Shown here piece after piece: positions 3,831 through 23,464 of a stretch of DNA of 64,000 nucleotides. The stretch spans positions 186,001 through 250,000 of the forward strand of contig MKTZ01000015.1 of assembly GCA_001898505.1 (NCBI GenBank). The letters run 5' to 3'. Numbering within the stretch: the stretch's first letter is position 1; each line of letters opens with the position of its first letter. The stretch comes from Sphingobacteriales bacterium 50-39. GTDB lineage: Bacteria > Bacteroidota > Bacteroidia > Chitinophagales > Chitinophagaceae. The notes beneath the pieces were generated by a model that worked only from the letters and a program-made list of their open reading frames with translations, was not told the DNA's origin and did no database searches. The position numbers and the translations under genes were made by a program.

Positions 3831-4847
3831 TTATTTCCGTGTTGTAGACTCCCGGACAACCAGCTTTGTCGGTAACGTCAGTTCCTGGGGAGGGAAATTT
3901 TTCTTATTGATATGGTTGAGCAGGAATTCGCAGCTCTTGCGCCCTACTTCCAACGCCGGCTCTTCTATCGTCGTAAGTGTCGGAGAAATGATCTCACACA
4001 TGGGATCGTTGGTGAACCCGATGATCCCCATCTGCTTCCCGATCTCGATATGGTGCTCTTTCAACGTCAGCATAGCGCCGATGGCTTTTCTGTCATTTAC
4101 GGCAAAGATCGCATCGGGCGTGGTTTTGCATTGCAACAGCTGCAACGCGTCCCTCTTTCCGAAATCCATGGAGAACCCTGAATGGATGATCCATTCATCT
4201 TTTACTGACAGCCGGTGCTCTTTCATGGCTGCTATGAAACCTTCCATCCTCGTCTCTGTAAACAACATACCCGCAGGGCCCGTGATATGCGCAATCCTCG
4301 TATACCCCTGCCCAATCAAGTGCTCTACGGCCTGGTAGGCGCCGTGATAATCGTCCTGCAAGATCTTCGAAGCCCTGATATCCGACGCCACTCTGTCAAA
4401 GAAGACGATCGGGATGCCGTCAGTAAGCACCTGCTGAAAATGATCGTTCTGCCCTGACCGCGAGCAAACACTCGCCAGCAAGCCATCGATATTTCCAAGG
4501 GAAAGCTCATTCAGGATATCCTTTTCCCGTTCCTCCGAATCATTGGTGATGTACAACACAATATTATACCCTTTTGCATAGGCCACTTCCTGTATGCCTG
4601 TAACAACGGTGGAAAAATAATAGTTGGTGATGGAAGGCAGGACAATGCCGATGTTGTGAGAACTATTCTTTACCAGTCCTGTGGCGTTAAAGTTGGGTTT
4701 GTAGTTCAGCTCTTCGGCTTTTTTGAGCACCAGCTGTCTTGTCTCCTGGTTGACATCGTAGGTATCCCTTAACGCCCTGGACACCGTAGCTACGGAGATC
4801 TTCAACTCTCTGGCAATATCCTTGATAGTGACGAAGTGACGTTTCAT
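3831..4847 (-). CDS. LacI-family transcriptional repressor of the adjacent glycan operon
   Basis: 338 residues from the chosen ATG. An N-terminal LacI helix-turn-helix (VTIKDIARELKISVATVSRALR) is followed by a hinge and a periplasmic-binding-protein-like effector domain (NIGIVLPSITNYYFSTVV, GIIGFTNDPMCEIISPTLTT), the standard layout and length. An upstream in-frame ATG at 4868 would add seven residues ahead of MKRHF; the shorter start puts the HTH at the usual distance from the N-terminus. It is divergent from the GH109-led operon, with a perfect palindrome at 4878-4891 between them, so autoregulation and control of that operon are likely. The effector is probably a sugar released by the operon's enzymes (inference). 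Confidence 0.9.
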   Translation of the reverse strand: MKRHFVTIKDIARELKISVATVSRALRDTYDVNQETRQLVLKKAEELNYKPNFNATGLVKNSSHNIGIVLPSITNYYFSTVVTGIQEVAYAKGYNIVLYITNDSEEREKDILNELSLGNIDGLLASVCSRSGQNDHFQQVLTDGIPIVFFDRVASDIRASKILQDDYHGAYQAVEHLIGQGYTRIAHITGPAGMLFTETRMEGFIAAMKEHRLSVKDEWIIHSGFSMDFGKRDALQLLQCKTTPDAIFAVNDRKAIGAMLTLKEHHIEIGKQMGIIGFTNDPMCEIISPTLTTIEEPALEVGRKSCEFLLNHINKKNFPPQELTLPTKLVVRESTTRK

Positions 4848-4877
4848 ACGCCAACGAAAGATAAGCAAAAAAGTCTT

Positions 4878-4891: not shown

Positions 4892-4975
4892 CTGATATAT
4901 TGGCCGCATTTCACGATGCGTAATGTTTTTACGGCGAATTTTGTTTGCACTGACTGTTTACGAAAAAATAACAAC

Positions 4976-6391
4976 ATGAACGATCGCAGACGCTTTCTGA
5001 AGTACGCCGGTCTTGTTGCCGGAGGTCTTGCCACCGGTGCTGTAAAAGGTTGGGCGAACGGGCATCCTCAGTTATCCTCCGGCCCTGCCGGCATACAGCC
5101 ACCCGGACCCGGGATCTTCAACATGTGCGGTTATGCAGCCCCCAAAATAGAAACGATACGTATCGGATTCATCGGCCTGGGCAATCGGGGATCGGAAGCC
5201 GTTCCCAGGATCATTCATATCGACGGCGTAGATGTCAGGGCCCTTTGCGATATCAGGGCGGACCTGGTCCAACAGGCAAAAAATGAGCTGAAGGGCACCT
5301 CGCATGATCCGGCCCTATACTCGGGCAGCGAAGAGGTATGGAAGAAGTTATGCCAGCGGGAGGATATCGATGTCGTCTATATCGCCACCCCCTGGGCATG
5401 GCATACCACTATGGCGGTGTACGCCATGGAACATGGCAAACATGTGGCGCTCGAAGTCCCGGCAGCAAAAACATTGGAAGAATGCTGGGCGCTCGTAAAC
5501 ACCTCCGAAAAGACCAAAAAGCACCTCATTTTCCTGGAAAATGAATGCTATGATTTCTTTGAACTACTGACACTGAATATGGCCCGACAGGGATTTTTTG
5601 GAGAGATCATCCATGGGGAAGGAGCTTATATCCATAGCATCGGAGAAAGCCTGTTCGACCCGGTGAGGCGCCCCGGTCTCTGGCGCCTGGCCGAAAATGC
5701 GGCCCGGAACGGCAACCTATACCCGACACATGGCCTGGGACCGGTGTGTGTCATTATGAATATCAACCGGGGGGATAAGATGGAGTACCTGACCTCCATG
5801 AGCAGCAACGACTTCAGCCTGCATCCTTATGCAGTGCAGCTGGCTGCCAAAGACCCCAACTATACCAAATATACGGACAAGCATTTCCGGGGCAATATGA
5901 ATACAACGACTATCCGTACCTGGAAGGGGCGGACGATCATGCTGCAACACGACACTTCCTCTCCCAGGGTCAAATCCTCCCGTTACCTGATCAGCGGCAC
6001 CAGGGCTACTGCTCAATGCGATGCGGACACGCCGCGGATCGCTACAAGTCATGAAGGATGGGTTTCCCAGGACGTATACGGCCAGCTGGAAAAACAATAT
6101 ACCCCTGCCATCGTGCAGAAAATGGGGGAAATGGCCCGGGTGGTCGGAGGACATGGCGGGATGGATTTTCTGATGGACTGGCGCTGGATAGATTGTGTGC
6201 GCAACGGGCTGCCCATCGACCACGATGTCTATGACGCCGCTCTTTGGAGCTGTATGTCCCCGCTGAGCGAATGGTCTGTCGCACACCGATCCAGCCCTGT
6301 CGACATACCGGACTTCACCCGGGGCGCCTGGGAGAAAAATACCCCGGTGAGCCTCTCCATCGATCACGACCATCTCACCACCGCAAAATAG
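4976..6391 (+). CDS. Tat-exported GH109-like alpha-N-acetylgalactosaminidase (Gfo/Idh/MocA fold)
   Basis: 471 residues. The N-terminus NDRRRFLK followed by a glycine/alanine-rich hydrophobic stretch is a twin-arginine signal, which fixes the start; an ATG at 4916 would only add 20 unlike residues. The Rossmann part has GFIGLGNRGSEAV, then TPWAWHTTMAVYAMEHGKHV and EVPAAKTLEECW, where ordinary Gfo/Idh/MocA dehydrogenases have EKP. Further motifs are FLENECYDFFELL, MLQHDTSSPR and GMDFLMDWRWIDCVRNGLP. This set is typical of GH109, which cleaves alpha-GalNAc by an NAD-dependent oxidation/elimination mechanism. It opens an eight-gene collinear operon. Alternative: a GH109 relative with another HexNAc or hexose specificity. 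Confidence 0.82.
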   Translation: MNDRRRFLKYAGLVAGGLATGAVKGWANGHPQLSSGPAGIQPPGPGIFNMCGYAAPKIETIRIGFIGLGNRGSEAVPRIIHIDGVDVRALCDIRADLVQQAKNELKGTSHDPALYSGSEEVWKKLCQREDIDVVYIATPWAWHTTMAVYAMEHGKHVALEVPAAKTLEECWALVNTSEKTKKHLIFLENECYDFFELLTLNMARQGFFGEIIHGEGAYIHSIGESLFDPVRRPGLWRLAENAARNGNLYPTHGLGPVCVIMNINRGDKMEYLTSMSSNDFSLHPYAVQLAAKDPNYTKYTDKHFRGNMNTTTIRTWKGRTIMLQHDTSSPRVKSSRYLISGTRATAQCDADTPRIATSHEGWVSQDVYGQLEKQYTPAIVQKMGEMARVVGGHGGMDFLMDWRWIDCVRNGLPIDHDVYDAALWSCMSPLSEWSVAHRSSPVDIPDFTRGAWEKNTPVSLSIDHDHLTTAK

Positions 6392-7207: not shown

Positions 7208-9379
7208 ATGCCCCGCACCAGAACCATACTATTGCTCTGCCTGTTGTTCCCCGCAACCCTGTTTGCGGAACCAACCCAGGTCCTTGGGGGGCTCTCAGAC
7301 GCCCTTGGCGGGCCAACCGATCCTCTTGGGCCGCAGTTTGCCCTGTTCCCGGTGCCACAGCGCATCGAGCAGATCAACGGCCATGGGCTGTTATACAGGG
7401 AACTGCTCGCAGTCGAAGTGGAAAGTCCCGGCCAGGCCCGCCTTTTGTCGGACTATTGCGCCGCATTGCCCATACATATTTCGTACGGACAGTCCATGTA
7501 TGTTTCCCCTGGACAGTCAGCAGGAATGCTCAGCCTCCGGATAGACAGCACACTGGACCTCCCCTCTCCGGAAGGATATGTCCTTCGGGTGGCGGACAAA
7601 GGAGTCACCATTCGGGCCAAAACCCAGGCCGGGCTGTTCTATGGTCTGCAGACCCTGAACCAATTGCTGGAAGACTCACATGACCAGGACATCGCCATAC
7701 CGGCCTGCGTCATTACGGACTACCCCTCCATTGCAGTAAGGGCCGTTCACATCGACCTGAAACATCACCTGGACGCCGGTTTTTATTATTATCATATCAT
7801 CGACGTGCTGGCGAGCATCAAAGTGAACACGGTGTTTTTCGAGTTCGAAGACAAGCTGCGCTATCGGAAGGCGCCGGCCGTTGGCGCGCCACAGGCTATT
7901 TCCATCGAAGAATTCGCCGCACTAAGCAAATATGCCCATGACCGCTACATAGAGATCAACCCGCTGGTGCAGGGGCTGGGGCATGCATCCTTTATCCTCA
8001 AGCACGAACAGTATAAGGAACTACGTGACGATCCCGCTTCGGACTGGGCTTTCGACCCCCTAAACCCTAAGACCTATGCCTTGCAGTTCGCGCTGTATGA
8101 AGATGCCATAGCGGCCACGCCTTATGGGAAATACCTGCACATCGGTGGCGATGAAGTGGGCACGCTGGGCAAATCAGCCCGGACGAAAAGGTCGGGCAAG
8201 TCGGCCATCCAATTGCAAATGTACTGGCTGAAGAAAGTGACGGAATTCGCACAGGCGCATCACAGGACCCCCATCTTCTGGGATGATATGGTCTTTAAAC
8301 TGTCGGGGTTGTACAAAACCACCTATGATACGACACTAAACAATGATACTGTCACCGTCCTCTGGAAAAAGAACAGTCCAAAATTGGACGCCAATATCTC
8401 ACTGTTTCCCACGGGCTGTATCTATATGCGCTGGAACTATGAGAGCCCAAACGCACCGGGGAATCGCCTGGCCATCGACTGGTACAAGGCCCATCACCTC
8501 GACGTAATGCCGGCCACCTCCGCCCAGCAATCCTATGCTGTATTGCAGCGCAACCACTCGAACTTCCCATACATCCGTGACTTTTGTCTCATCGCAAAAG
8601 CCAAAAACCTGGATAAGATACTCTGCACGGTTTGGGATGACAGCTCACCTCATTTTGAGACCATCTGGCGCGGACTATACGATTTTGCCTGGTTCAGCTG
8701 GAATGCGGTTGATGCGGGCGAAGACAAAATTCATGCTGCATACCGTCACCGTTTTTTCTCGCCGGCGCTCGCCGGACAGGAATATGAGTGCAGGGATCAG
8801 TTGGAAGAGGCCATCACGTTTTGGGAAACAGCTTTTTTGCAAAAGGGCGATCGGGAGAGTTACTACCCCTCTTTCCAACTCATGGACCTGCCCGCGCCGG
8901 CGCCCGCTCACGCCAAAGGACAATGGAGCCGCCGGTATGAACAAAAATTACAGGGCGCAGCTGCCAGCATGGAGATATATCACCTGGTCAAAGAAAAGAT
9001 CCAACGCTGTTTGGCGCTGTCCCGAAGGAACCGCTACGCATTGGAAATACTGGACCAGATCAACGAATTGCAAGGCTATTCCGCCAACCTGCTGTTACTG
9101 CTAAAAAAATATGACGACTCGGACACGGAAGAAGAAAAAAAGCAGATCCTTATCCGGATCAGGGAATGGATCGACGGTTTTGCCGCGACGCGTTCACAGC
9201 TGGAAGAAGTCTTCGGCAGGACCCGCATGATGGGCAACCCCGAAGGATATATACGGGATGCCAACCAGCATCTTCACCTGGCCAATGGGACCAACAACAC
9301 GGACTGGATGTATTATTACGAGTTGCCCATGAATAGTAAAGCGCAGAAATGGATTCAGTCTCGGAAAAAGTATAAATAG
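7208..9379 (+). CDS. Secreted GH20 beta-N-acetylhexosaminidase-like enzyme
   Basis: 723 residues with a signal peptide (core TILLLCLLFPATLFA). A GH20b-type N-terminal domain (about 45-155, ending GLFYGLQTLNQLL) precedes the catalytic barrel with HIGGDE at 311-316; Asp315 and Glu316 are the expected pair for substrate-assisted catalysis. FWDDMVFKL and CTVWDDSSPHFETIWRG are also GH20-like. The last 200 residues are helical and charged, as in the group sometimes called GH20C rather than chitobiases. Directly after the signal peptide there is a Leu-Gly-Gly repeat of period seven (residues 25-42). It should release terminal beta-HexNAc in the periplasm or at the surface, supplying the NagB-like route. 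Confidence 0.85.
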   Translation: MPRTRTILLLCLLFPATLFAEPTQVLGGLSDALGGPTDPLGPQFALFPVPQRIEQINGHGLLYRELLAVEVESPGQARLLSDYCAALPIHISYGQSMYVSPGQSAGMLSLRIDSTLDLPSPEGYVLRVADKGVTIRAKTQAGLFYGLQTLNQLLEDSHDQDIAIPACVITDYPSIAVRAVHIDLKHHLDAGFYYYHIIDVLASIKVNTVFFEFEDKLRYRKAPAVGAPQAISIEEFAALSKYAHDRYIEINPLVQGLGHASFILKHEQYKELRDDPASDWAFDPLNPKTYALQFALYEDAIAATPYGKYLHIGGDEVGTLGKSARTKRSGKSAIQLQMYWLKKVTEFAQAHHRTPIFWDDMVFKLSGLYKTTYDTTLNNDTVTVLWKKNSPKLDANISLFPTGCIYMRWNYESPNAPGNRLAIDWYKAHHLDVMPATSAQQSYAVLQRNHSNFPYIRDFCLIAKAKNLDKILCTVWDDSSPHFETIWRGLYDFAWFSWNAVDAGEDKIHAAYRHRFFSPALAGQEYECRDQLEEAITFWETAFLQKGDRESYYPSFQLMDLPAPAPAHAKGQWSRRYEQKLQGAAASMEIYHLVKEKIQRCLALSRRNRYALEILDQINELQGYSANLLLLLKKYDDSDTEEEKKQILIRIREWIDGFAATRSQLEEVFGRTRMMGNPEGYIRDANQHLHLANGTNNTDWMYYYELPMNSKAQKWIQSRKKYK

Positions 9380-9413: not shown

Positions 9414-12400
9414 ATGCATCGGATTAGAAGCACATGGAGACTCCTCCTGCTCTTGCTGCTCCCCTCCTCCCTACTCGCTCAGACGAGAACTATTACCGGC
9501 ACCATCCGGGATGAAAACGGGCGACCGATGTCGGGCGCTTCCGTAACGGTTAAAAGGACGGGCGTTGGCACGAGCACGGACACTACCGGGAAGTTCTCGG
9601 TACAGGCGGCCACGGGTTCCGTCATTATTCTTTCCGCCGTCAACTACGAGGATGTATCCATCGTGGTGGAACAGGCCAGCCATTATAACATCGCATTCAA
9701 GCAGAAGGCCTCCCAGCTGAACGACGTCGTCGTAGTCGGATATGGCACCCAAAAGAAAGCAGACATCACCGGCGCTATTGCCACGGTGGATAAGAAACTG
9801 ATCGAGAACAGGCCGGTAACAAACTCCGTCGCTGCCCTGCAGGGCGCCTCTCCCGGCCTTATCATAACCCGCTTCAGCGGACAACCGGGGAAAGAAGAAT
9901 ATACCGCCAATATCCGCGGGTTCTCCTCCATCAACGGGACCAATACGGCATTGATACTTATCGATGGCGTCGAAGGCGATCTGACACTGCTGAACCCGAA
10001 CGATATCGAATCCATCAGCGTCCTCAAAGACGCGGCAGCCGTGTCGATCTATGGTGCGAAGGCAGCCGGAGGGGCCATCCTCGTAACGACCAAAAAGGGA
10101 ACACCGGACAGGCTCACCCTCACTTACTCGGGTCTCAGGACCTTTAACCATGCCTTTGGCATCCCTCAGCGGAACCATTCATGGGAGGATGCAGAAATGC
10201 AGAACGAGGCGTTCAGGAATGCCGGCTACAACCCTGCCTACACGCAACAGGACCTGGGCTATATGAAGGATCCGAATATTAATTATATCGTCAATCCCTC
10301 CAATCCCAACGTATACAAATACTATTATGATCTCAACCAGATCAATATCCTCATGAGGAAGACCTCTCTCAGCCAATCGCATAATATTTCCTTACGAGGC
10401 GGGTCCGATAAGACCCAATACCTCTTCTCCATCGGGTATTTCGACCAGAACGGCGTGTTTACGCTAGGGCCGGACGGTACGAAACGGTACAACGGGCGAT
10501 TTAATATCAATACACGACTGAGCAAGATCTTCAATATCGACGCCAGGGTTGGATATGCACAAACGCACACCATGTCCCCCGCCGGCGATACCTACGCGGA
10601 CTATGGATTGATATACGGCATTTACCAGCTTCGGGAGATCTATCCCATTTTCCTGCCAGGCTCCAACAATACGAAATATGCCCGGGCCAGCAGCGCCCCT
10701 ACCACTTATCAGATCCTGAAGGACGGAGGGTATGGGGAAGATATTCGTCATAACCTGGACGGCGTGTTTACTTTAAAAGCCGAGAATTTTGTAAAAGGCC
10801 TTTCCGCACGGCTGATCTATGCCCCACAAGTAGTCTTTGGCGCGAACAACTACTTTGAAAAGACCATACCATTGTATGACATCGGACCAAATCCGACAAA
10901 GTATATCTTCAATCCGAACTCGTTTACAAAGATCAGGGACGTTACGGACAGGACCAACCTGCAAGCCCTCGTGGACTATGATCTCGAACTGGCTTCGGTC
11001 CACCACTTCCATTTACTGGGAGGCTATCAATACCAATATTTTCATGCAGACACGACCATGGCCACTGCGAGCGCGCTGATCTCGAACGACCTCCCCTCCC
11101 TTAACCTCAGCGGCGACCCTACGGTACCTCCTACTGTAGGCGATGATGTCCAGACAAGTGCCCTGATCTCCTGGTTCGGAAGGTTCAATTACAACTATGA
11201 CGAAAAATATTTCTTCGAGGCCACATTGAGGAATGATGCCAGCTCCCAGCTGGCGCCGGGGCATAGAAGTCAATACTTCCCCTCTCTGTCGGCTGCCTGG
11301 AGATTGAGTAAAGAGGGCTGGTTCAAGAACGCCCTTCCCCTATTCGATGAATTCAAACTGAGGGGTTCATGGGGAAAGCTGGGAAATTCCAATGTCCTGG
11401 GCAACTATGACTATATATCCATGCTGAACCAGGGACCTGTCTATCCATTCAACAACACCCGGAACAATTCACTGTATCAGGCAGTGCTAGCCTCACCCGA
11501 GAAGACATGGGAACGGCTCGCCACCACGGACGGCGGTATCGACCTGGGCTTGCTGGGCCAGCGGTTAACAGCCAGCTTCGACTACTATGTCCGTACCAAC
11601 GAGAACATGCTGGTAGTGGTGAACGCTCCGGCTACCCTCGGGCTTATCCCCAGCGCAACCAACTCCGCCCGCCTGAGAACAAAAGGCTGGGAAGCCACTA
11701 TCGGATGGAAAGATCACACCGCCAGGCTGAACTACTGGGTCAACTTCAATATATCGGACAACAAAGATGTCGTCACACGCTATGACGGACAAAATGTGAT
11801 CGCCGAAGGCCTGAACACGGTGATCCAGGGGATGCCGGTCAATTCCATTTTCGGCTACATAGCGGAAGGTTATTTCAAATCCGATGCGGATGTCTCGGCC
11901 CATGCATTTCAGGACGACAGAACAGGAGCGGGCGACCTTATTTACAAAGACATGAACAAGGATGGTTTTATCAACGGCGGGCTCAACAGGCCGGATGACC
12001 ACGGCGACCTCGTATACCTGGGCAACACCAGCCCGCGCTACACCTTTGGCCTCAACCTTGGTGTTGAATGGAACGGCTTCGACCTGTCCGCCCTCTTTCA
12101 GGGAGTAGGCAAACGGAACATGCTGATCTATCCCTCCGCCATCGTTCCCTTTGTCGATGCGTGGAGACAGCCCTGGGCCATCAACAAGGATTACTGGACG
12201 CCGGATCATACCAACGCGCTTTTCCCGCGTCTCTACGTAGGCGGCACGCAGAATACGCACACTTCCACGAAATGGGTGCAGAATGCGGCGTACATCCGGC
12301 TGAAGAACCTGCAGGTGGGATACACCCTGCCACAGCGGCTCACCGCCAAAGTCAAGATCCAGAAAGCACGCATCTTCTTCTCCGGACAGGACATCTGGGA

Positions 12401-12509
12401 GCACAGCAAAATGTGGTACAAGTATTTCGACGCGGAGAGCCCGAATAATGCTGCCTACAACTATCCATTCTTCCGCAGTTACGCTGCCGGTCTGAACATT
12501 ACTTTCTAA
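9414..12509 (+). CDS. SusC-like TonB-dependent outer-membrane glycan transporter
   Basis: 1031 residues: signal peptide, carboxypeptidase-regulatory-like beta domain (ITGTIRDENGRPMSGASVTV), TonB box region (VVVGYGTQKK), plug (LQGASPGLIITRFSG, IDGVEGDL, VLKDAAAVSIYGAKAAGG) and a 22-strand barrel ending in a C-terminal aromatic residue (AGLNITF). There is no STN domain, so no coupling to an ECF sigma/FecR system is expected. It forms the outer-membrane import complex with the SusD-like lipoprotein encoded 24 bases downstream and probably imports oligosaccharides for the hydrolases of this operon. Confidence 0.95.
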   Translation: MHRIRSTWRLLLLLLLPSSLLAQTRTITGTIRDENGRPMSGASVTVKRTGVGTSTDTTGKFSVQAATGSVIILSAVNYEDVSIVVEQASHYNIAFKQKASQLNDVVVVGYGTQKKADITGAIATVDKKLIENRPVTNSVAALQGASPGLIITRFSGQPGKEEYTANIRGFSSINGTNTALILIDGVEGDLTLLNPNDIESISVLKDAAAVSIYGAKAAGGAILVTTKKGTPDRLTLTYSGLRTFNHAFGIPQRNHSWEDAEMQNEAFRNAGYNPAYTQQDLGYMKDPNINYIVNPSNPNVYKYYYDLNQINILMRKTSLSQSHNISLRGGSDKTQYLFSIGYFDQNGVFTLGPDGTKRYNGRFNINTRLSKIFNIDARVGYAQTHTMSPAGDTYADYGLIYGIYQLREIYPIFLPGSNNTKYARASSAPTTYQILKDGGYGEDIRHNLDGVFTLKAENFVKGLSARLIYAPQVVFGANNYFEKTIPLYDIGPNPTKYIFNPNSFTKIRDVTDRTNLQALVDYDLELASVHHFHLLGGYQYQYFHADTTMATASALISNDLPSLNLSGDPTVPPTVGDDVQTSALISWFGRFNYNYDEKYFFEATLRNDASSQLAPGHRSQYFPSLSAAWRLSKEGWFKNALPLFDEFKLRGSWGKLGNSNVLGNYDYISMLNQGPVYPFNNTRNNSLYQAVLASPEKTWERLATTDGGIDLGLLGQRLTASFDYYVRTNENMLVVVNAPATLGLIPSATNSARLRTKGWEATIGWKDHTARLNYWVNFNISDNKDVVTRYDGQNVIAEGLNTVIQGMPVNSIFGYIAEGYFKSDADVSAHAFQDDRTGAGDLIYKDMNKDGFINGGLNRPDDHGDLVYLGNTSPRYTFGLNLGVEWNGFDLSALFQGVGKRNMLIYPSAIVPFVDAWRQPWAINKDYWTPDHTNALFPRLYVGGTQNTHTSTKWVQNAAYIRLKNLQVGYTLPQRLTAKVKIQKARIFFSGQDIWEHSKMWYKYFDAESPNNAAYNYPFFRSYAAGLNITF

Positions 12510-12533: not shown

Positions 12534-14171
12534 ATGAATACGCTATATAAAAGAACGATCCTGCTGACACTTACAGCATTGTGGTTTTTCAGCTGTTCAA
12601 AAAAGCTGGACCAGATCCCGCAGACGGACCTGTCGGACGCCAATTTCTGGAATAACACCAACGACATGAAGCTGGCCTGTAACTATCTCTATTCCCAATT
12701 GCCCCCTATCGAGACCCACACGGACGATGTGATGTCCGCGGATGCCTTTGGACTGAGCGCCAATACGACCAGCGACGGCTCCTGGCTGCCACCCGCCACT
12801 TCCGACAGCTGGAACGGCGATTATAGCCTCATCAGGGCCTGCAACAATATCCTGGAGAAGTCGGCGCACGTGGTCGGAGATCAGAACATTATCAACAAGT
12901 ATCTGGGAGAAACGAGATTTTTCCGCGCCTGGGCCTACTTTGACCTGGTCAAACGATATGGTGACGTACCCTTTGTCACGAAGACCTTGCAATTGACCGA
13001 TACGCTGCTATTCTCCGCCAAGACCCATCGGGAGCTGATACTGGACTCGGTCTATGCGGACCTGGATTTCGCGGCAGCCAATCTTCCCAGGTCCGACCAA
13101 CAGGCCGGCGAAGAATACGGCCGTATCACCAGCACGGCGGCACTCGCATTCACCTCGCGGGTCGCTCTCTTCGAGGGCACACGGATGAAATTCTTTAACC
13201 AGTCGGGCTACCAGAGCCATCTGCAGAAGGCTATCGCCGCCAGCGATGCGATCATTGCCTCCGGCAGCAATTCGTTGTTCACCTATTCGGCCAATCCCGA
13301 CAGCAGCTATTATTTTCTATTCCAATATACAGGAGAGGGGCAGGGCAATCCGGAGAATATCCTGGTCCGTATCTACGGAGAGAACCAGCTGAATAGTATC
13401 TCCGCCAACAATTACACCCGGGCGGTGCTGGACGAAGGACTGCTGATGCCAACAGGTAATTTCACCTCGGCATACCTGTACACGGATGGTCTGCCCGCCA
13501 GCAAATCACCTTATGACAAGACCCAGACGAATACCTATACCGAATTCGAGAACAGGGACCCCCGAATGGCAATGACGGTCTTCAATATAAGATCATGGTA
13601 TGTTTCCAGCTATTATGTCCCTACCTTCGAATATTCCCAAACGGGCTACCGGTCTTGTAAATATTATATCGCAGCGGACTGGACGCCCAATGTGAGCTAT
13701 ATCGATAACATCATCATCCGGTATGCCGAAGTGCTGCTGAACAACATCGAGGCCCGATTTGAGCTCAACGGTTCCGTTACGGACCAGGAGCTGGATGCCA
13801 CGCTGAACCTTATCCGCGTCCGGGCAAAAATGCCCAGCCTGACCAATAATTTTGTCACTTCCAACGGTCTGGACATGCGCACCGAGATCCGTAGAGAAAG
13901 AAGGGTCGAGCTGGCCTTTGAAGGGTTTCGCTATTGGGACCTCCTTCGCTGGAAGACAGCAGAAACAGAATTACCGCAGTCTATTCTTGGCGTGAGGTAT
14001 TTTCCGAACGAGCAGGGACAGCTGGATAATCCCCATCTCACCACGGACAGCACGGTCATCGTGGAGGACGCCAGCAAACGCCATTTCCGGCCGGATAGGG
14101 ATTATCTCTGGCCTATTCCCACACAGGAGCTTGGATTGAACAAGAATTTAACCCCTAACCCCAATTGGTAA
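12534..14171 (+). CDS. SusD-like/RagB glycan-binding lipoprotein
   Basis: 545 residues. The signal peptide ends at a lipobox (LWFFSCSKKLD), so the protein should be anchored to the outer membrane and exposed as the lid of the SusC channel. SusD-type features include a helical TPR core (ETRFFRAWAYFDLVKRYGDVPFVT) and the C-terminal segment RREERRVELAFEGFRYWDLLRW-like (seen as ERRVELAFEGFRYWDLLRWK) followed by LWPIPTQELGLN. It is immediately downstream of the SusC gene and 7 bases before the triple-domain enzyme. Confidence 0.95.
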   Translation: MNTLYKRTILLTLTALWFFSCSKKLDQIPQTDLSDANFWNNTNDMKLACNYLYSQLPPIETHTDDVMSADAFGLSANTTSDGSWLPPATSDSWNGDYSLIRACNNILEKSAHVVGDQNIINKYLGETRFFRAWAYFDLVKRYGDVPFVTKTLQLTDTLLFSAKTHRELILDSVYADLDFAAANLPRSDQQAGEEYGRITSTAALAFTSRVALFEGTRMKFFNQSGYQSHLQKAIAASDAIIASGSNSLFTYSANPDSSYYFLFQYTGEGQGNPENILVRIYGENQLNSISANNYTRAVLDEGLLMPTGNFTSAYLYTDGLPASKSPYDKTQTNTYTEFENRDPRMAMTVFNIRSWYVSSYYVPTFEYSQTGYRSCKYYIAADWTPNVSYIDNIIIRYAEVLLNNIEARFELNGSVTDQELDATLNLIRVRAKMPSLTNNFVTSNGLDMRTEIRRERRVELAFEGFRYWDLLRWKTAETELPQSILGVRYFPNEQGQLDNPHLTTDSTVIVEDASKRHFRPDRDYLWPIPTQELGLNKNLTPNPNW

Positions 14172-14178
14172 CACCAGG

Positions 14179-17100
14179 ATGAAATACCGGATACTGTTAT
14201 TGATCGTCGGACTGATCTCGAACTTCGCGTCTGCGCAGCAGCCGATGCGCAAATTGGTGGAGAACGATCTTGCATTTGCCAAAGGGCAATATAAGACCCT
14301 CATGGAAAAGCTGCCGGCGGGACGGATGCCACGCACGTATGATGTCAGGACGGACACGCTGGAGACTTCCGGTGCGGACTGGTGGTGCAGCGGTTTTTAT
14401 CCGGGCGCCCTCTGGTATCTCTATGAATATTCCCATGACCCGGTGTTCAAGCACGAGGCAGAAAAAAGAATGGCTCTCATCGAAGGAGAGAAGGACAATC
14501 GCAGCGACCATGATCTGGGATTCAAAATAATGTGCAGCTATGGAAATGCCTATCGGATCACGGGAAACCCCAACTATAGGAAAGTGCTGTTCGATGCCGT
14601 ACAATCGCTCATGTCCCGATTCCGGCCCTCCATCCGGAGCATCCAGTCCTGGGACTCTTCTTCCCGCTACCGGTGTCCGGTCATCATCGACAACCTGATG
14701 AACCTTGAATTGCTGGAATGGGGCGACCCACAGGATACCATGGCCATCCAGCACGCAAATACGGCCATGCGGAACCATTTCCGGAAAGATTACAGCACCT
14801 GGCATGTAGTAGACTATGACCTGCCAACAGGCAAGCCGTCGCGAAAGATCACCCGCCAGGGCGCTGCAGATGCTTCCACCTGGAGCAGAGGCGAAGCGTG
14901 GGCCCTTTACGCCTATACCATGTTGTATCGTTATACCCGCGATCAGGCATATCTGTCACAGGCGGAACATATCGCCGGCTTTATCCTGGATCACCCCCGA
15001 CTGCCCGCGGATGGGATACCCTATTGGGATTTCGATGCACCGGACATTCCCCATGCCTACAGAGATGCCTCCGCCGCCGCTGTCATGGCCTCCGCATTCC
15101 TGGAACTGGGACTTTATACAAGCACAACGAATAGCCGGCGTTATGTTGCCGCCGCCGAAAAAATGCTGCGCTCCTTGTCCTCGCCCGCCTACCGGGCCGC
15201 CCCGGGAGCCAACGGAGGATTTTTATTGATGCACAGCGTGGGCGCCCTTCCATTCCGGAGCGAGGTAGACCAGCCCCTGACCTATGCCGATTATTATTTC
15301 CTGGAAGCATTGCTTCGATACCGGAACTGGTGGCTGGACAGCACGCGGACTCGGCCAACAGGCCCTGCCTATCGCTCCACCTCGTCGTCCCCACAACCGA
15401 AATATCTCACCGACTCCATGAAATTCTATGACGGCCGGAGCCTAACGGTCATCGGCCAGTGCCATGATGAGAACAACTACCGCCGCCTGCCGCAAAAATA
15501 TAAGGGTGTCGTACGAGATCCGGTATGGGGTGAAAGCACATCGGCAGCCGGAATATCGATCCGTTTCAGGACCAATGCGGCAACCTTGCGGCTCCGATGG
15601 AAACTGGCGGAGATTGGAAGGTCAGGGAACATGAACTCCGCCGGGGCAGACGGCCTGGACCTGTATACGCATACAGACAAAGGCTGGCAATATGTAAATA
15701 CCGCCCTGGCAAAGGATACGGTCAATGAATTTACGCTGTTGCGAAACAGCGAGCCTGTCTACCGCGAATATCTGCTGAACCTGCCCCTGTACAATTGCGT
15801 AACGCAGCTTTCCATCGGGGTCAATCAATGGGCGGACGTCCGGGAGCCATCGGAAAGACTTTTGCTGGATAAGAAACCCATCGTCTATTACGGCAGCAGC
15901 ATCGCCCAGGGCGCGTCGGCCAGCCGCCCCGGTCTGGCATATACGAACTTAATGTCGCGCCGCCTGGACAGGCCCTTTATCAACCTGGGTTTCAGCGGGG
16001 AAGGGACTTTTGACGAGTCGGTCGGTCAGGCTATGTCGGAGATCGATGCCGCCCTGTATGCCATCGACTGCACGCCAAATTCGAAAAAGGAGATCATTTA
16101 CGATCGGGCCGTTGCGCTCGTCAAACAGCTAAAGGGCAGGGCGCCGGCAACACCCATCCTGCTGATAGAAGGGTTTTATTATGACGATGTTGTCTTTGAA
16201 AAGGATGGCAACGCGAACATCGACGCGAAAAGAAAGGAGCTTCACCGTGCCTATGACACATTGATACGGCATGGCATCAAAGGGCTGTATTACAAGACAG
16301 GGGATGGTCTCACCGGCTTCGACCACGAAGCTACCGTGGACGGCGTGCATCCGAATGACATCGGGATGCAGCGTTTTGCAGAACAAATGCAGCCCGTGAT
16401 AGCTGGCATCCTTGCCAAACACCCATCCGAAGCTCCCGTTGCGGAATACTATACCGTGGGCGATTTTGCCTCCGTAAAGAAGATCGATGCGCACGTCCAT
16501 CTCACGGAGGAGGTAGACACGGCCTTTGTAAAACAGGCAGAAGACGATAACTTCCGGTTATTGAACATCAACTTATATACCACCAACGGAACGCCGCTGG
16601 AAGAGCAGCAAAACTTTGCGCTGCATGAAGTACAGGCTTTCCCCGGCCGGGTGGCGTATGCAACAGCCTTTTCGCTAAAACATTTTAACGACACCGGGTG
16701 GCGCCGGGAAGTGATTGCCTGGCTGGAACAAGCTTTCTCGCATGGCGCCGTCGCGGTAAAGGTCTGGAAGAATGTGGGTCTGGAATTGCGGGATACCACC
16801 GGTCGCCTGGTCATGATCGACGATCCCCGCTTCGATCCAGTCCTGGACTTTATCGCGAAAAGGGGCATAACGCTGATCGGTCACCTGGGCGAGCACCGAA
16901 ACTCCTGGCTGCCCCTGGATAAAATGACGGTCAAAGGCAACAGGGACTACGCAGCCGCCCACCCGCAGGAATATATGTACCTGCATCCGGAACGGCCATC
17001 GTACTTTACGTATATACGCGCCCGTGACCATATGCTGGAAAAACATCCGGACCTCAGCTTTGTGGGCGCTCACCTGGGAAGCCTCGAGTGGAGCGTGGAT

Positions 17101-17490
17101 GAACTGGCCAAGCGACTGGACAAATATCCCAATATGGCGGTGGACCTGGCGGAACGCATCTCGCACCTGCAATACCAGGCTTTGACCCAATGGAAGAAAG
17201 TGCATGACTTTTTGATAAAATACCAGGACAGGCTCATTTACGGAACAGATATGCGCCATGAGGCCATGGATATCGTGGGCGAACAGATAACAGGATACGA
17301 GGGTTTGAAAAAACACGCACACGAGGTCTGGCTGCGGCATTGGCGTTTCTTTACGACGGGTGACACGATGACCGTGCCAAAGGTACAGGGAACGTTCAAA
17401 GGAATGAGGCTGCCCCGACAGGTAGTGGATAAGATCTATTTTGGGAATTCTCTGAAATGGTATCCCCGGCTGTCGGGGACCATCGACTAA
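14179..17490 (+). CDS. Three-domain fusion: GH88 unsaturated uronyl hydrolase, SGNH esterase, amidohydrolase
   Basis: 1103 residues in one uninterrupted frame, with a signal peptide (SNFASAQ end). Residues about 25-390 are a GH88 alpha/alpha barrel: FYPGALWYLYEY, HDLGFK with Asp112, and IIDNLMNLELLEW with Asp171, spaced like the two catalytic aspartates of unsaturated glucuronyl hydrolases. Residues about 410-760 are an SGNH hydrolase with its N-terminal beta domain, nucleophile Ser574 in YGSSIAQGA and the Asp721/His724 pair in DGVHPND. Residues about 765-1103 are an amidohydrolase-2 metal barrel: DAHVHL (His772, His774), GHLGEHR, GAHLGSLEW and YGTDMR (Asp1024). All three sets of active-site residues look intact. 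Likely roles are removal of unsaturated uronate ends, de-esterification, and hydrolysis or decarboxylation of a small ring or lactone product (inference). Confidence 0.85.
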   Translation: MKYRILLLIVGLISNFASAQQPMRKLVENDLAFAKGQYKTLMEKLPAGRMPRTYDVRTDTLETSGADWWCSGFYPGALWYLYEYSHDPVFKHEAEKRMALIEGEKDNRSDHDLGFKIMCSYGNAYRITGNPNYRKVLFDAVQSLMSRFRPSIRSIQSWDSSSRYRCPVIIDNLMNLELLEWGDPQDTMAIQHANTAMRNHFRKDYSTWHVVDYDLPTGKPSRKITRQGAADASTWSRGEAWALYAYTMLYRYTRDQAYLSQAEHIAGFILDHPRLPADGIPYWDFDAPDIPHAYRDASAAAVMASAFLELGLYTSTTNSRRYVAAAEKMLRSLSSPAYRAAPGANGGFLLMHSVGALPFRSEVDQPLTYADYYFLEALLRYRNWWLDSTRTRPTGPAYRSTSSSPQPKYLTDSMKFYDGRSLTVIGQCHDENNYRRLPQKYKGVVRDPVWGESTSAAGISIRFRTNAATLRLRWKLAEIGRSGNMNSAGADGLDLYTHTDKGWQYVNTALAKDTVNEFTLLRNSEPVYREYLLNLPLYNCVTQLSIGVNQWADVREPSERLLLDKKPIVYYGSSIAQGASASRPGLAYTNLMSRRLDRPFINLGFSGEGTFDESVGQAMSEIDAALYAIDCTPNSKKEIIYDRAVALVKQLKGRAPATPILLIEGFYYDDVVFEKDGNANIDAKRKELHRAYDTLIRHGIKGLYYKTGDGLTGFDHEATVDGVHPNDIGMQRFAEQMQPVIAGILAKHPSEAPVAEYYTVGDFASVKKIDAHVHLTEEVDTAFVKQAEDDNFRLLNINLYTTNGTPLEEQQNFALHEVQAFPGRVAYATAFSLKHFNDTGWRREVIAWLEQAFSHGAVAVKVWKNVGLELRDTTGRLVMIDDPRFDPVLDFIAKRGITLIGHLGEHRNSWLPLDKMTVKGNRDYAAAHPQEYMYLHPERPSYFTYIRARDHMLEKHPDLSFVGAHLGSLEWSVDELAKRLDKYPNMAVDLAERISHLQYQALTQWKKVHDFLIKYQDRLIYGTDMRHEAMDIVGEQITGYEGLKKHAHEVWLRHWRFFTTGDTMTVPKVQGTFKGMRLPRQVVDKIYFGNSLKWYPRLSGTID

Positions 17491-17500: not shown

Positions 17501-18769
17501 ATGCCCGGAAACTATCGCTGGTTCATTTGTATGCTTCTTTTTGCAGCCACCACTATCAATTACATCGACCGGCAGATCTTTGGCTTGTTGAAGCCGGAGC
17601 TGGAGAAGGTGTTCAACTGGACAGAAACGGATTACAGCAGGATCGTAATGGCGTTTACGGTCTGTTATGCGGCCGGTCTTTTAGTCTATGGGAGGATCAT
17701 CGACCGTATTGGCACCCGGCTCGGCTATACGATCTCGGTAGCAGTCTGGAGCACGGTGGCGATGCTGCATGCCGTTGTCAGAAGCGCGCTGGGGTTCGGA
17801 ATTGTGCGCGCACTCCTTGGCTTGGGCGAGTCGGGGAATTACCCTGCGGGTGTCAAGACAGTAGGCGAATGGTTTCCCCCAAAAGAAAGGGCGCTGGCCA
17901 TTGGGATACTCGACTCGGGCTGCAATATCGGCGCTTGTGTGGGTCCTTTGCTTGTTCCCTGGCTCCTGGCTGTGTACGGCTGGCAGGCAGCCTTTGTCGT
18001 GACCGGGTCCCTGGGCTTCCTCTGGCTGATCCTCTGGCTGCGGGTGTACCGTGCGCCGGCCAAGCACCCGCGCGTGACGCCTGCGGAGCTCACCTATATA
18101 CAGAGCGGGGAGGAAGAAGCTGTCGCCCCGACGGCCCGGCTGACCTGGGGACAATTGCTGCGGCTCCGCCAGACCTGGGCATTTATCATCGGCAAATTCT
18201 TTACCGACCCCATCTGGTTCTTTTTCCTTTTCTGGCTTCCTTCTTATTTCAGCGCCCATTTTCATCTTGACCTTCGCAAACCAAGCCTGCCGCTGGTGAT
18301 CGTGTATGCAGGCACCATGATCGGAAGCCTGGGCGGCGGTCAGCTTTCTTCCTGGCTTATCAAAAAAGGCTGGCCGGTCCACAAAGCACGCAAAACAGCG
18401 CTGCTGGCGGCAGCAGCGTGTGTGATACCGATCGTGATCACTCGCTACACCACCGACATCCGCGTCGTGGTTGCCCTCATCGGTCTGTCAGCAGCAGCCA
18501 ACCAGGCCTGGAGCGCCAATATATTTGCGATCGTACCGGACATGTTCCCCCAGAACGCGATCAGTTCCGTTGTGGGGCTGGGCGGGATGGCCGGCGCCAT
18601 CGGCAGCTTCCTCTTCCCCATCTTCATCGGCTTTATTCTCGACTTTTATAAGAATGCCGGTAATATCGTTGCCGGGTACAATATCATTTTCCTGGTTTGT
18701 GGAACCTCTTTCCTGGCGGCCTGGGTCCTTATACATTATGTCACGCCTAAAATGGAAAAAATAGCATGA
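17501..18769 (+). CDS. MFS transporter of the hexuronate (ACS/ExuT) type
   Basis: 422 residues with about twelve hydrophobic segments. Motifs typical of the anion:cation symporter family: TINYIDRQIFGLL in helix 1, DRIGTRLGY in the loop after helix 2, GLGESGNYPAGVKTVGEWFPPKERALAIGI in helices 4-5 (split here only for description), and a late helix with GLGGMAGAIGSFLFP. Relatives import glucuronate, galacturonate or similar acids with protons across the inner membrane. Its position right behind the GH88 fusion supports import of the released (unsaturated) uronic acid. The next gene starts within its stop codon (ATGA overlap of 4 bases). Confidence 0.88.
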   Translation: MPGNYRWFICMLLFAATTINYIDRQIFGLLKPELEKVFNWTETDYSRIVMAFTVCYAAGLLVYGRIIDRIGTRLGYTISVAVWSTVAMLHAVVRSALGFGIVRALLGLGESGNYPAGVKTVGEWFPPKERALAIGILDSGCNIGACVGPLLVPWLLAVYGWQAAFVVTGSLGFLWLILWLRVYRAPAKHPRVTPAELTYIQSGEEEAVAPTARLTWGQLLRLRQTWAFIIGKFFTDPIWFFFLFWLPSYFSAHFHLDLRKPSLPLVIVYAGTMIGSLGGGQLSSWLIKKGWPVHKARKTALLAAAACVIPIVITRYTTDIRVVVALIGLSAAANQAWSANIFAIVPDMFPQNAISSVVGLGGMAGAIGSFLFPIFIGFILDFYKNAGNIVAGYNIIFLVCGTSFLAAWVLIHYVTPKMEKIA

Positions 18770-19888: not shown

Positions 19889-21133
19889 CTATACTTGTAA
19901 TGCCGTCTCGAAAAAATTATCGATGTTTTTCACAGCGCATCCTAAAAGGTTGGCGAACTCACCTAATTCCGAAGAAACGATCTGCGCCTTTTCTCTTATT
20001 TGAGTCATACAGTACGTATTGATAGCTTGTAACATCGGTATCGTAATATATTGTCTGGCGGCGGCAATCCTGCCTTCCAAAATGACCAATTCAGGATTGA
20101 ATATCTGAATGAGCGTGGAAATCCCTTTCCCCATGCTGGAGCCGATATTGGATAAGAGCTTTATGGCGTATAGATCTCCTTTGTTGGCGGCTTCTACGAT
20201 CAATCTGGGTTCAATTTTGTCGATCTCTTTATTGCTCAATTCATTTAAAATAGATATCTGTCCGGACCCGATGCCTGCCTTGGCCATTCTTGCCAGTGCA
20301 ATCCCGGAAGCAACAGTCTCGAGACATCCGTGCTTGCCGCAGTAGCAGAGTGCGCCATTATCTTCAAAGGGAATATGTCCTATCTCACCGGAAAACCCCG
20401 ACGTGCCTATTCGAACGTCTCCATCCATGATGATCCCAAGGCCGACCCCCCAATCCATTAAAAGCACCAGGACATTTTTCTTCCCCTTTGCTTTTCCACA
20501 CCTCAACTCGCCAAGCGCGGCTGCTTTTACATCATTCTGAATGCACACGGGCACATCGAAAAAAGCCCTGCAATACTCTGCCAACGTCCTTTGGTCATTA
20601 TTGTCGATCAGATAACTAAAACTCTCTCCTGTATCCGTGTTGACCAGACCGGGAAGGCTTATGCATACGCCAATTAATTTATTCGCGGGTATATTTGCCG
20701 AAGCGATCAATTTTTGCGCGTACGCAAGAACACTATCCAGGTCTTTCCTGTTCTTAGGAAGTATATAGGGAATAGAGACCTTATTCCCCTGTAGGCTCAG
20801 CGTATTGTCAAAAACGGCAATATGAGCCATAAACAATTCGATATCGATACAAAGAACAAAAAATGATTTCGCCACCAACCCCACCAGATCGGGCCTCCTG
20901 CCGCCAAACGAAATCCCGGGCCCTTTTTTTTCAATCCAGCCGGCATCCGTCAATTCGGACAATAATTTCAATACGGTGGGCATACTCAACCCTATGTCCT
21001 TGCAGATCTCGGGCGTAGATGCTTTCTCCGACCGAAATAAATACTTCAATAGCTGGATTTTATTAACCCCTGTCTTCCCTTCCATTTTTAGCCCATCCAA
21101 TGGATGCTGTACTGCCGGATCTTGCTTTGGCAT
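19889..21133 (-). CDS. ROK-family transcriptional regulator (NagC/XylR type)
   Basis: 414 residues. The N-terminal winged helix-turn-helix (QLLKYLFRSEKASTPEICKD, LSMPTVLKLLSELTDAGW) precedes a ROK sugar-kinase-like domain with QNDVKAAALGE, WGVGLGIIMDG and the zinc motif CYCGKHGC (Cys263, Cys265, Cys270) after GEIGHI. The HTH indicates a sugar-responsive repressor rather than a kinase. It is divergent from the oxidoreductase/DUF1080 pair. Two inverted repeats in the 178-bp gap (21141-21163 and 21226-21240) are candidate operators, one just ahead of its own start and one near the promoter of the other gene. Confidence 0.88.
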   Translation of the reverse strand: MPKQDPAVQHPLDGLKMEGKTGVNKIQLLKYLFRSEKASTPEICKDIGLSMPTVLKLLSELTDAGWIEKKGPGISFGGRRPDLVGLVAKSFFVLCIDIELFMAHIAVFDNTLSLQGNKVSIPYILPKNRKDLDSVLAYAQKLIASANIPANKLIGVCISLPGLVNTDTGESFSYLIDNNDQRTLAEYCRAFFDVPVCIQNDVKAAALGELRCGKAKGKKNVLVLLMDWGVGLGIIMDGDVRIGTSGFSGEIGHIPFEDNGALCYCGKHGCLETVASGIALARMAKAGIGSGQISILNELSNKEIDKIEPRLIVEAANKGDLYAIKLLSNIGSSMGKGISTLIQIFNPELVILEGRIAAARQYITIPMLQAINTYCMTQIREKAQIVSSELGEFANLLGCAVKNIDNFFETALQV

Positions 21134-21311: not shown

Positions 21312-22664
21312 ATGAACAATGATTACTCTTCCCGCAGGAAATTTCTGAAGATGCTCGGCCTGTCTTCCGGAGCTTTAGCTGCCGGGAAATATGCGGAAGC
21401 TTTTGCGGGCAGCAATAGCGGTACATATGTTATCCGTCTTGACAAACAGCAACGGCTTTCCTCCAACGACAATCTACAGATCGCCCTGATCGGCGCAGGC
21501 GGCATGGGTACGAACGACACCAACACCGCTTTGCAGGTCCCGGGCATAAAACTGGTCGCGGTATGTGACCTGTATACAGGCAGACTGGAAACGGCCAAAA
21601 AGAACTGGGGCAATGATATTTTTACCACAAAACATTATAAAGACATTCTTAGCCGGAAGGACATCGATGCGGTCATCGTTGCGACGCCCGATCATTGGCA
21701 CAAGCAAATCTCCATCGATGCGCTGAATGCCGGCAAACATGTCTATTGCGAGAAGCCAATGGTTCATTCGGTGGAAGAAGGGCCTGCCGTTATTGCAGCA
21801 CAAAAGAGCTCAGGAAAGATATTCCAGGTGGGCAGCCAGGGAGTTTCTTCTCTGGGTAATGAAAAGGCAAAACAATTGCTCAAAGAGGGCGCCATCGGTG
21901 AACTTAACTATGCCGAGGGTTTTTGGGCACGCCGCGATCCTGTTTCCGTCTGGCAATACCCCATACCGGAAGACGCATCGGAGCAAACCGTGGACTGGGA
22001 CACCTATATAAGCAATACGGTGAAAAGGCCGTTCGATAGCAAACGATTTTTCCGTTGGCGTAACTATACCGACTATGGCACGGGCATGGCGGGGGACCTG
22101 TTTGTACATCTTTTCTCCAGCCTGCATTTTATTACGAACTCTCTGGGCCCTGACCGTATATACTCAACAGGAGGATTGCGTTTCTGGAACGACGGACGGG
22201 AAGTGCCGGACGTGCTGCTCGGCTCTTTTGATTACCCCAAAACCATGGTGCACCCCGCGTTCAACCTGTCGTTGCGTTGCAATTTCGTAGACGGCACCAG
22301 CGGCACAACCTATTTAAAACTGGTAGGCAGCGAAGGGGCGATGGATGTGACCTGGGACGACGTGGTCTTAAAAAAGAACACGGCGCATGAGGAGGACCCT
22401 TTCCTGAAAACAAAGGGTAAGCAAAATGAAATGAGAAAGCAGATCCTGCCGCCCAGCTCCATTACTTACAAAGCTGAAGAAGGCTACAAAGGCGGGCCAT
22501 ACGACCATATGTTCAACTTCTTTTCTGCCATTCGCAACAATGGAAAGGTAGTGGAAGACGCTGTGTTCGGATACCGTGCCGCAGCACCTGCCCTGCTTTG
22601 TAATGACAGCTACCGTGAAAAAAGACCGATGACCTGGGATCCCGAAGCCATGAAAAAAGCCTGA
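21312..22664 (+). CDS. Secreted Gfo/Idh/MocA-family oxidoreductase
   Basis: 450 residues. The N-terminus SSRRKFLKMLGLSSGALAAG is a twin-arginine type signal. An NAD(P)-binding fold follows (IALIGAGGMGTNDTN, VAVCDLYTGR), then VIVATPDHWHKQISIDAL and the family motif YCEKPMVHSVEEG with the conserved Glu-Lys-Pro that GH109 enzymes lack. It probably oxidises a sugar hydroxyl, often C3, outside the cytoplasm. The next gene encodes a DUF1080 protein 41 bases downstream. This pairing is a recognised arrangement in which a 3-keto glycoside is formed and then cleaved by elimination; the assignment here is inference. Likely repressed by the divergent ROK regulator. Confidence 0.85.
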   Translation: MNNDYSSRRKFLKMLGLSSGALAAGKYAEAFAGSNSGTYVIRLDKQQRLSSNDNLQIALIGAGGMGTNDTNTALQVPGIKLVAVCDLYTGRLETAKKNWGNDIFTTKHYKDILSRKDIDAVIVATPDHWHKQISIDALNAGKHVYCEKPMVHSVEEGPAVIAAQKSSGKIFQVGSQGVSSLGNEKAKQLLKEGAIGELNYAEGFWARRDPVSVWQYPIPEDASEQTVDWDTYISNTVKRPFDSKRFFRWRNYTDYGTGMAGDLFVHLFSSLHFITNSLGPDRIYSTGGLRFWNDGREVPDVLLGSFDYPKTMVHPAFNLSLRCNFVDGTSGTTYLKLVGSEGAMDVTWDDVVLKKNTAHEEDPFLKTKGKQNEMRKQILPPSSITYKAEEGYKGGPYDHMFNFFSAIRNNGKVVEDAVFGYRAAAPALLCNDSYREKRPMTWDPEAMKKA

Positions 22665-22705
22665 CGTGAATGAGCAAATGTAGAAACATAAACCAGACAC
22701 CAACA

Positions 22706-23401: not shown

Positions 23402-23428
23402 CCAGGCTTTTATCTCATTTCTTCAAAG

Positions 23429-23454
23429 CCCGCTGTCATAGCGGGTTTTTTTTT
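23429..23454 (+). terminator. Rho-independent terminator after the DUF1080 gene
   Basis: Stem CCCGCT/AGCGGG with the loop GTCAT, followed by nine T residues, 28 bases after the stop codon of the DUF1080 gene. Confidence 0.85.
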
Positions 23455-23464
23455 CCTGAATCGA

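Follow-up and report, generated by a model that had tools for sequence, protein, structure and literature searches.

The window analysed here comprises 64,000 nucleotides of contig MKTZ01000015.1 (positions 186,001 to 250,000) from Sphingobacteriales bacterium 50-39. At 14179..17490 (+) it contains an open reading frame (ORF) of 1103 amino acids (aa), running from ATG to TAA with zero internal stops, in which a glycoside hydrolase family 88 (GH88) domain, a GxDLY-SGNH esterase and an amidohydrolase follow a signal peptide. Almost certainly this ORF arose naturally, by fusion of genes that were neighbours in an operon. Enzymes that unite several catalytic domains are already known as a kind from polysaccharide loci of Bacteroidota; the new part is the amidohydrolase family, which has no solved relative by sequence and is tied to amino-sugar catabolism. 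What the triple fusion and its separate-gene counterparts draw attention to is an enzyme family that is uncharacterised. The explanation as a whole, fusion together with a pathway in which the amidohydrolase would act on an amino sugar, is given a probability of roughly 0.4.

The three-domain protein and its origin

The ORF is divided as follows.
14179..14238 (+), the 60 nucleotides before 14239: signal peptide, aa 1-20, MKYRILLLIVGLISNFASAQ, assigned by eye; mean identity 59% among ten relatives
14239..15327 (+): GH88 domain, aa 21-383, with D112 and D171; 3wiw E=7e-96, 1vd5 E=6e-45; mean identity 85% to the ten relatives
15328..15408 (+): variable linker 1, aa 384-410; identity 56%, gapped in 10/10 relatives
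15418..15834 (+): GxDLY domain, aa 414-552; PF14607 E=2e-35
15871..16401 (+): SGNH esterase domain, aa 565-741, with S574/D721/H724; PF14606 (Lipase_GDSL_3) E=7e-60, 4lhs E=2e-57
16417..16449 (+): variable linker 2, aa 747-757; identity 54.5%, gapped in 5/10 relatives
16450..17487 (+): Amidohydro_2 module, aa 758-1103, with H772, H774, K861, H902, H965 and D1024; PF04909 E=1e-10 and AlphaFold2 (AF2) model

The original prediction, made from the letters alone, had read a single open frame with a signal peptide and three complete catalytic domains, and the domain matches bear this out; stop codons between the domains, which would have spoken against it, were looked for and are absent from the frame. 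All active-site residues named at that time are present. Moreover, D112, D171, S574, D721, H724, H772, H774, K861, H902, H965 and D1024 are invariant in all covering rows of a 13-row alignment, in which P0012 lacks the GH88 start and P0013 the amidohydrolase. Compared with the ten full-length relatives, mean identity is 86% for the amidohydrolase, 85% for GH88 and 84% for SGNH. An AF2 model of the full-length fusion, built on the same alignment, reached a mean predicted local distance difference test score (pLDDT) of 45.9 and a predicted TM-score of 0.34; it was not used, and domain contacts were not drawn from it.

Among solved structures, residues 48-382 are matched best by 3wiw ('Glycosyl hydrolase family 88'). 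By a hand count on the alignment, D112 and D171 correspond to residues 88 and 149 of 1vd5, which we take to be the catalytic pair of the Bacillus unsaturated glucuronyl hydrolase. The likeness to these two hydrolases covers nearly the whole catalytic domain and includes both catalytic Asp positions, whereas the GH88 of the ORF is joined to two further enzymes. The Pfam GH88 model did not report the ORF protein at E 1e-3, so that the assignment rests on the PDB matches; PF07470 is listed for two of the ten full-length relatives, and NCBIfam names none of the three domains. Judged by its sequence, the first domain very probably has GH88 activity. Enzymes of this family are expected to act on an unsaturated uronyl end made by a lyase or a dehydratase. 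In the second part both Pfam domains lie above their cut-offs, and an invariant Ser-Asp-His triad is formed by Ser574 in the motif GSS(574)I and by Asp721 and His724 in DGVH. The same domain pair and triad occur in PDB entry 4lhs ('Uncharacterized protein'), whose record gives no function. This part is probably a carbohydrate esterase.

Relatives were searched among 5.8 billion proteins; the 7991 candidates sharing most words were scored, and the best 120 of 575 matches are listed. Among these, ten (P0001-P0010, P0003 being named as a Chitinophagaceae protein) are full-length relatives with 77-88% identity over 98-100% of the query. All ten carry the SGNH and amidohydrolase Pfam domains and share the order GH88-SGNH-amidohydrolase, for which the original prediction had asked that databases be searched. 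P0011 is a piece of the ORF's own protein, P0012 a shorter relative and P0013 (738 aa) a two-domain GH88-SGNH protein without amidohydrolase. In 195 sampled genomes of the same taxonomic family, with at most three candidates scored per genome, only the own genome spans the whole query among the matches listed. Because the ten relatives sit on other contigs, chance or assembly error is very unlikely; the triple fusion is real and looks confined to a narrow lineage. The claim that no characterised enzyme has this order agrees with literature searches, in which no description of the architecture was found in a mostly open-access coverage that leaves out most subscription journals.

The separate genes are preserved in Mucilaginibacter sp. 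BT774 (locus L012), where the closest stand-alone amidohydrolase of the kept loci is found. Here one run comprises a GH20-type end piece, SusC, SusD, GH88, SGNH, two NagX-like genes, the amidohydrolase and a transporter of the major facilitator superfamily (MFS), followed by a rhamnosidase-type gene, another SGNH and LacI. Identity to the window genes is 49% for GH20, 63% for GH88, 64% for SGNH, 69% for the amidohydrolase (over the module), 74% for MFS and 71% for LacI. A tree of 110 modules groups the six fused members that it includes in a single clade (100/99), and L012 is the sister of that clade (100/97). Separate-gene, two-domain and three-domain forms therefore all exist, and from them an order of events may be deduced. 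An accidental read-through of operon neighbours, bringing no benefit and leaving one domain to decay, would agree with the many unrelated partners to which this amidohydrolase family is joined, as expected if fusion is easy. However, the architecture is kept in ten relatives at 77-88%, the domains are conserved at 84-86% identity and the catalytic residues are intact, which makes this alternative highly improbable.

The amidohydrolase family and its gene neighbourhoods

The match to Amidohydro_2 (PF04909) covers aa 837-1096 with 42 bits (gathering cut-off 26.4); with the first strand included the module extends over about aa 758-1103. Its AF2 model is a TIM barrel (mean pLDDT 94.7) whose strand ends carry HxH, His and Asp. 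H772, H774, K861, H902, H965 and D1024 are kept in 74/74 rows of the family alignment, from which P0011, P0012 and P0177 were left out and in which the distant own-genome protein P0179 is included. Enzymes of the ACMSD/COG3618 type (3irs, 3cjp, IDCase, LigJ, 4dlf) have the same barrel with HxH on strand 1, His on strands 5 and 6 and Asp on strand 8 (strand numbers are our own assignment). In contrast to them the module, at less than 20% identity, carries an invariant Lys861 where strand 4 ends, is often exported and is fused to glycan enzymes. A binuclear centre with a carbamylated Lys861 is possible; Lys at the corresponding place also occurs in other PF04909 groups. By sequence no relative of the family was found in the PDB, and a phmmer search with P0178 against the PDB gave weak rows only, the sole amidohydrolase-like chain being 3irs (E=0.04). 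Regarding the NagA/AgaA family (TIGR00221/PF01979), neither the module nor P0178 had an NCBIfam match at 0.01, and Pfam gave PF04909 only. A strict lipobox pattern fits 36/79 frames of the family loci, and many others have a hydrophobic start and a Cys by eye; L083 has no intact frame, and L073 was excluded from alignment A3 due to a stop inside the match range.

The module is joined to more than 12 kinds of partner. A search with the module as query region, in which candidate lengths were set by the whole protein and partners taken from a precomputed Pfam column, gave 74 proteins, 12 of them the triple fusion or its pieces (P0001-P0012). The other 62 have other or no named partners: GH36 (6), DUF2961-type (6), GH18 (5), metallo-beta-lactamase fold (5), BNR/sortilin (5, including the own-genome P0132), GH27 (4), GH30 (4), metallophosphatase (4), sulfatase (3), class II aldolase (2), EamA (1), BadF kinase (1) and others. 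Its position in these proteins varies, with the module at the C-terminus of some and at the N-terminus of others. The GH36 and GH27 fusions count for a link to N-acetylgalactosamine (GalNAc), since GH27, GH36 and GH109 are given as exo-alpha-GalNAcase families in an excerpt of PMC12118421; the class II aldolase and EamA fusions were likewise counted as support for an amino sugar. In P0144, P0174 and P0175 the module is joined to very unlike partners (nitrilase-type, TPR, alpha/beta-hydrolase), and no single substrate explains these. The own genome has a second fusion at C15:165551-168850 (-), about 31-35 kb upstream of the triple-fusion ORF, a 1100-aa frame of the module and C-terminal BNR/sortilin-type repeats. 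Close to this BNR fusion (L003, L007/L008) are a SusCD-like pair, recognised by eye, and a GalNAc-type catabolic cluster of AgaS, PfkB, class II aldolase and DeoR.

Gene neighbours were compared in the best 80 of at least 547 confirmed stretches, with close relatives retained. Each neighbour was labelled by its best BLAST hit in a reference set, and the labels KbaY, AgaS, AgaR, NagX and EamA come from family matches often below curated cut-offs. GH109 was labelled in 29 loci, NagX-like in 13, AgaS, KbaY and PfkB in 11 each, AgaR in 7, EamA and NagB in 6 each, MFS in 3 and GH88 in one, which is L012. An MFS transporter also directly follows the amidohydrolase in L013, and no GH88 is labelled there within 10 kb. 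In 11/11 loci of this set with KbaY, our label for the aldolase gene, a family member lies directly downstream on the same strand. L029 has two copies, 73% identical to each other; the one directly after KbaY is the additional copy, and the locus-defining copy comes next. In most of these loci AgaS is upstream of KbaY. L051 and L062 have it downstream of the amidohydrolase, and no AgaS is visible in L067, where the contig runs out; L090 has PfkB without AgaS. Carriers of the AgaS cluster include Dyadobacter tibetensis (L058) and Adhaeribacter aerolatus (L029), and L064 also has an amidohydrolase in such a cluster. The order AgaS-PfkB-KbaY-amidohydrolase is also present in genomes G028, G059 (same stretch as L061) and G123. 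In L029 the AgaR scores above its NCBIfam cut-off, and the two AgaS proteins scanned match TIGR02815 below cut-off.

Module and AgaS also occur together by genome. At E<=1e-60 the module was found in 9 and AgaS in 10 of the 195 family genomes; 5 genomes have both, where 0.46 would be expected (Fisher p=1.3e-5 when genomes are counted, 1.2e-4 when genera are, uncorrected for kinship). At class level (295 genomes) AgaS is confined to the own genome; the module reaches E<=1e-40 in 7 genomes, and of these the own one and G456 alone give very low E-values. Among AgaS loci without module, G007 and G107 have a distantly related Amidohydro_2 in the same slot, then a melibiase-type (GH36) gene, and in G030 and G124 a melibiase-type gene itself occupies the slot; G081 has the module on other contigs. 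The AgaS locus of G051 has neither module nor melibiase-type gene (L105, G051:C20, 5179-16001); its agaR-agaS-pfkB-kbaY run lies beside a GH27-like gene (by eye), a GH88 46% identical to that of the window and a beta-helix protein. In L103 and L106 another Amidohydro_2 (about 30% identity) stands after KbaY, followed by a melibiase-type gene, and here one family has possibly been replaced by another. In 21 AgaS loci of 6-21 kb each, of which L061 and L108 are the same stretch, tblastn at E 1e-15 with two own NagA queries detected no NagA/AgaA homologue. NagA matches were obtained by tblastn in the module loci L013, L025/L112, L041 and L086, which are without AgaS.

The surrounding locus and the proposed pathway

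The genes around the fusion are the following.
3831..4868 (-): LacI-type regulator, transcribed divergently from GH109; LacI/RbsR-type matches in NCBIfam, all under their cut-offs; L012 has a LacI-type gene 71% identical to it
4916..6391 (+): GH109 N-acetylgalactosaminidase-type protein; 6t2b E=5e-94, 2ixa (alpha-N-acetylgalactosaminidase) E=1.5e-70, PF21252
6422..7180 (+): NagB-like hexosamine-6-phosphate deaminase; TIGR00502 139 bits, below the cut-off of 237
7208..9379 (+): GH20-like hexosaminidase; PF02838, PF00728; 6q63 E=9e-17
9414..12509 (+): SusC-like transporter, by sequence, position and BLAST label among related loci
12534..14171 (+): SusD-like lipoprotein; PF07980 E=6.5e-45
17501..18769 (+): MFS transporter, D-galactonate subfamily; TIGR00893 233 bits, cut-off 395; 74%/79% identical genes directly after the amidohydrolase in L012/L013
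18766..19872 (+): NagX-like membrane acyltransferase; NF046061 124 bits, below the cut-off of 480
19889..21133 (-): ROK protein with N-terminal helix-turn-helix, probable regulator; PF00480 E=4e-53, HTH_24

A susC/susD pair with carbohydrate enzymes, as in SusCD polysaccharide utilization loci, is thus present. Since the locus has SusD, GH109, GH20-like and NagB-like genes, the substrate probably contains uronate and N-acetylhexosamine (HexNAc); the polymer is likely a uronate-HexNAc chain, and chondroitin itself is not claimed. The gene after the fusion had been called a hexuronate-type transporter, which is fair for the family (MFS, TIGR00893 best) but leaves the substrate unproven at 233 against 395 bits. 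The same contig also carries AgaS, PfkB, a class II aldolase and a DeoR-type regulator, about 17-21 kb upstream of the fusion.

Architecture, intact residues, separate-gene operon and family context are observations; for all substrates and reactions we infer the following scheme. The ORF product would be one exported (periplasmic or secreted) protein uniting three operon neighbours of a SusCD locus. SusC/SusD may bring in oligosaccharides of a glycan with uronate next to HexNAc, from which the GxDLY-SGNH domain would take off an ester, probably O-acetyl. The GH88 domain would then cleave the non-reducing unsaturated uronyl residue, and the exposed HexNAc may be removed by GH109 and the GH20-like enzyme. 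The amidohydrolase, a metal-dependent TIM barrel, would act on the amino-sugar part, most likely by N-acetyl removal from GalNAc. Free galactosamine would be taken up, phosphorylated and passed to AgaS, the PfkB kinase and the class II aldolase.

An action of the amidohydrolase on an amino sugar or its glycoside is somewhat likely, and its identity as a GalNAc N-deacetylase specifically is put forward tentatively. It is less likely than not that a new GalNAc N-deacetylase family, metal-dependent and for the most part exported, begins with this module; such a family would belong to the ACMSD-like branch of Amidohydro_2, would be fused onto many glycan enzymes and would open an unphosphorylated galactosamine route in Bacteroidota (deacetylation outside the cytoplasm, galactosamine import, phosphorylation, AgaS). 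According to an excerpt of Ravcheev and Thiele (PMC5583593), agaS without agaA was taken to mean that galactosamine is used and GalNAc is not. If the amidohydrolase deacetylates outside the cytoplasm, such clusters would use GalNAc after all, and an N-deacetylase would explain how they could handle it. It would also be a new tool for trimming GalNAc-bearing glycans. The chemistry proposed resembles that of the GalNAc-6-P and N-acetylglucosamine-6-P deacetylases AgaA/NagA, namely N-deacetylation before AgaS, whereas these belong to another family (PF01979/TIGR00221) and, in an excerpt of PMC12118421, act on the phosphorylated sugar. A precedent within the amidohydrolase superfamily, as excerpted from PMC12017989, is the GlcNAc1A deacetylase OngB, which deacetylates an amino-sugar derivative without phosphorylation; OngB differs from the module in being of subtype V and D-aminoacylase-like. 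Foldseek matches at low TM-scores include cyclic-amide hydrolases (allantoinase, dihydropyrimidinase, hydantoinase) and lend weak support to N-deacetylation.

Several findings weigh against deacetylation by the module. NagA is above cut-off in each of 14 genomes checked, and L013 and L041 hold it in the same locus as the module. In addition, NagX-like acetyltransferases accompany the amidohydrolase in 13 loci, the adjoining transporter belongs to an anion-type subfamily, and 0/50 structural match rows are titled N-deacetylase. The main rival is a COG3618-like sugar lactonase, which would open a lactone on the amino-sugar or uronate side and whose anionic product would be imported by the MFS transporter. 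However, no lactone-making oxidoreductase lies inside the AgaS-PfkB-KbaY-amidohydrolase runs, and P0178 is on a very long branch (1.6), for which reason its context may not carry over to the module; a lactonase is considered unlikely.

According to the original prediction the amidohydrolase modifies the uronate or aglycone freed by GH88. This is not supported, with GH88 in 1/80 loci and amino-sugar neighbours recurring. Of the one-polypeptide route described at that time, the exported three-domain enzyme in a glycan-use locus stands but not the linear route through the amidohydrolase; with amino-sugar genes as family neighbours and GH88 rare, the three domains are more probably directed at separate portions of a single oligosaccharide. 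A different reaction of ACMSD type (hydration, dehydration, decarboxylation, C-C/C-O cleavage), with either the 4-deoxy-5-keto-uronate that GH88 sets free or a GFO/IDH-type keto-sugar as substrate, is suggested by structural rows including IDCase, LigJ hydratase and ACMSD, and by CBM9-type, GFO/IDH and DUF1080-like (by look) genes after the module in L051, L058 and L062. The single GH88 label among the 80 kept loci speaks against it and means that the GH88 product cannot be the family's common substrate, so that this reading is given a rather small chance. For a KdgF/KduI-like role on the GH88 product the rank is low, as the kept loci are mostly without GH88. Between these readings and the preferred N-deacetylation, a stand-alone family protein of about 380 aa makes the question directly testable.

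Comparison with chondroitin use and further observations

GH88 is known to be paired with GH109 in the chondroitin cycle of B. caccae PUL25 (PL35, GH88, GH109 and a GH154-type dehydratase; excerpt of PMC12269599). There chondroitin products serve as substrates for BcGH88; BcGH109 has N-acetylgalactosaminidase activity on aryl glycosides, and its role in the pathway was proposed by the authors. The unsaturated end can be made by a dehydratase (excerpts of PMC12269599, PMC8511951). GH88 and GH109 in one locus, both present in the window, and uronate-HexNAc chains are shared. In contrast to PUL25, no lyase or GH154 was identified in the window (PL35 and GH154 were not searched for), which adds SGNH, amidohydrolase, GH20-like and NagX genes; the main text of PMC12269599 has no mention of an amidohydrolase, SGNH or esterase. 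The window genes that were scanned include none recognisable as a lyase. PL8 (PF02278) gave 0 matches in the own genome in a search without positive control, as the controls gave no match either, and PF07940 (heparinase II/III-type) gave one, far away on C1. A gene of about 690 aa in Daejeonella loci, taken up as a GH154 candidate, was rejected, Pfam giving AXE1-type esterase matches.

Beside the locus, 21312-25291 of the window holds a GFO/IDH oxidoreductase and a 3-keto-disaccharide hydrolase (PF06439), followed by genes judged by eye to encode an AraC-type regulator and a protein of the nitrilase type; this looks like a keto-glycoside cassette. At 39811-43768 (-) an arylsulfotransferase-type and a cytochrome c protein directly adjoin a SusD-type gene, an unusual neighbourhood. 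Finally, 25663-29253 (+) encodes a protein of 1196 aa with repeated modules by eye, whose C-terminus presumably carries a gliding-motility-like motif, also seen by eye.

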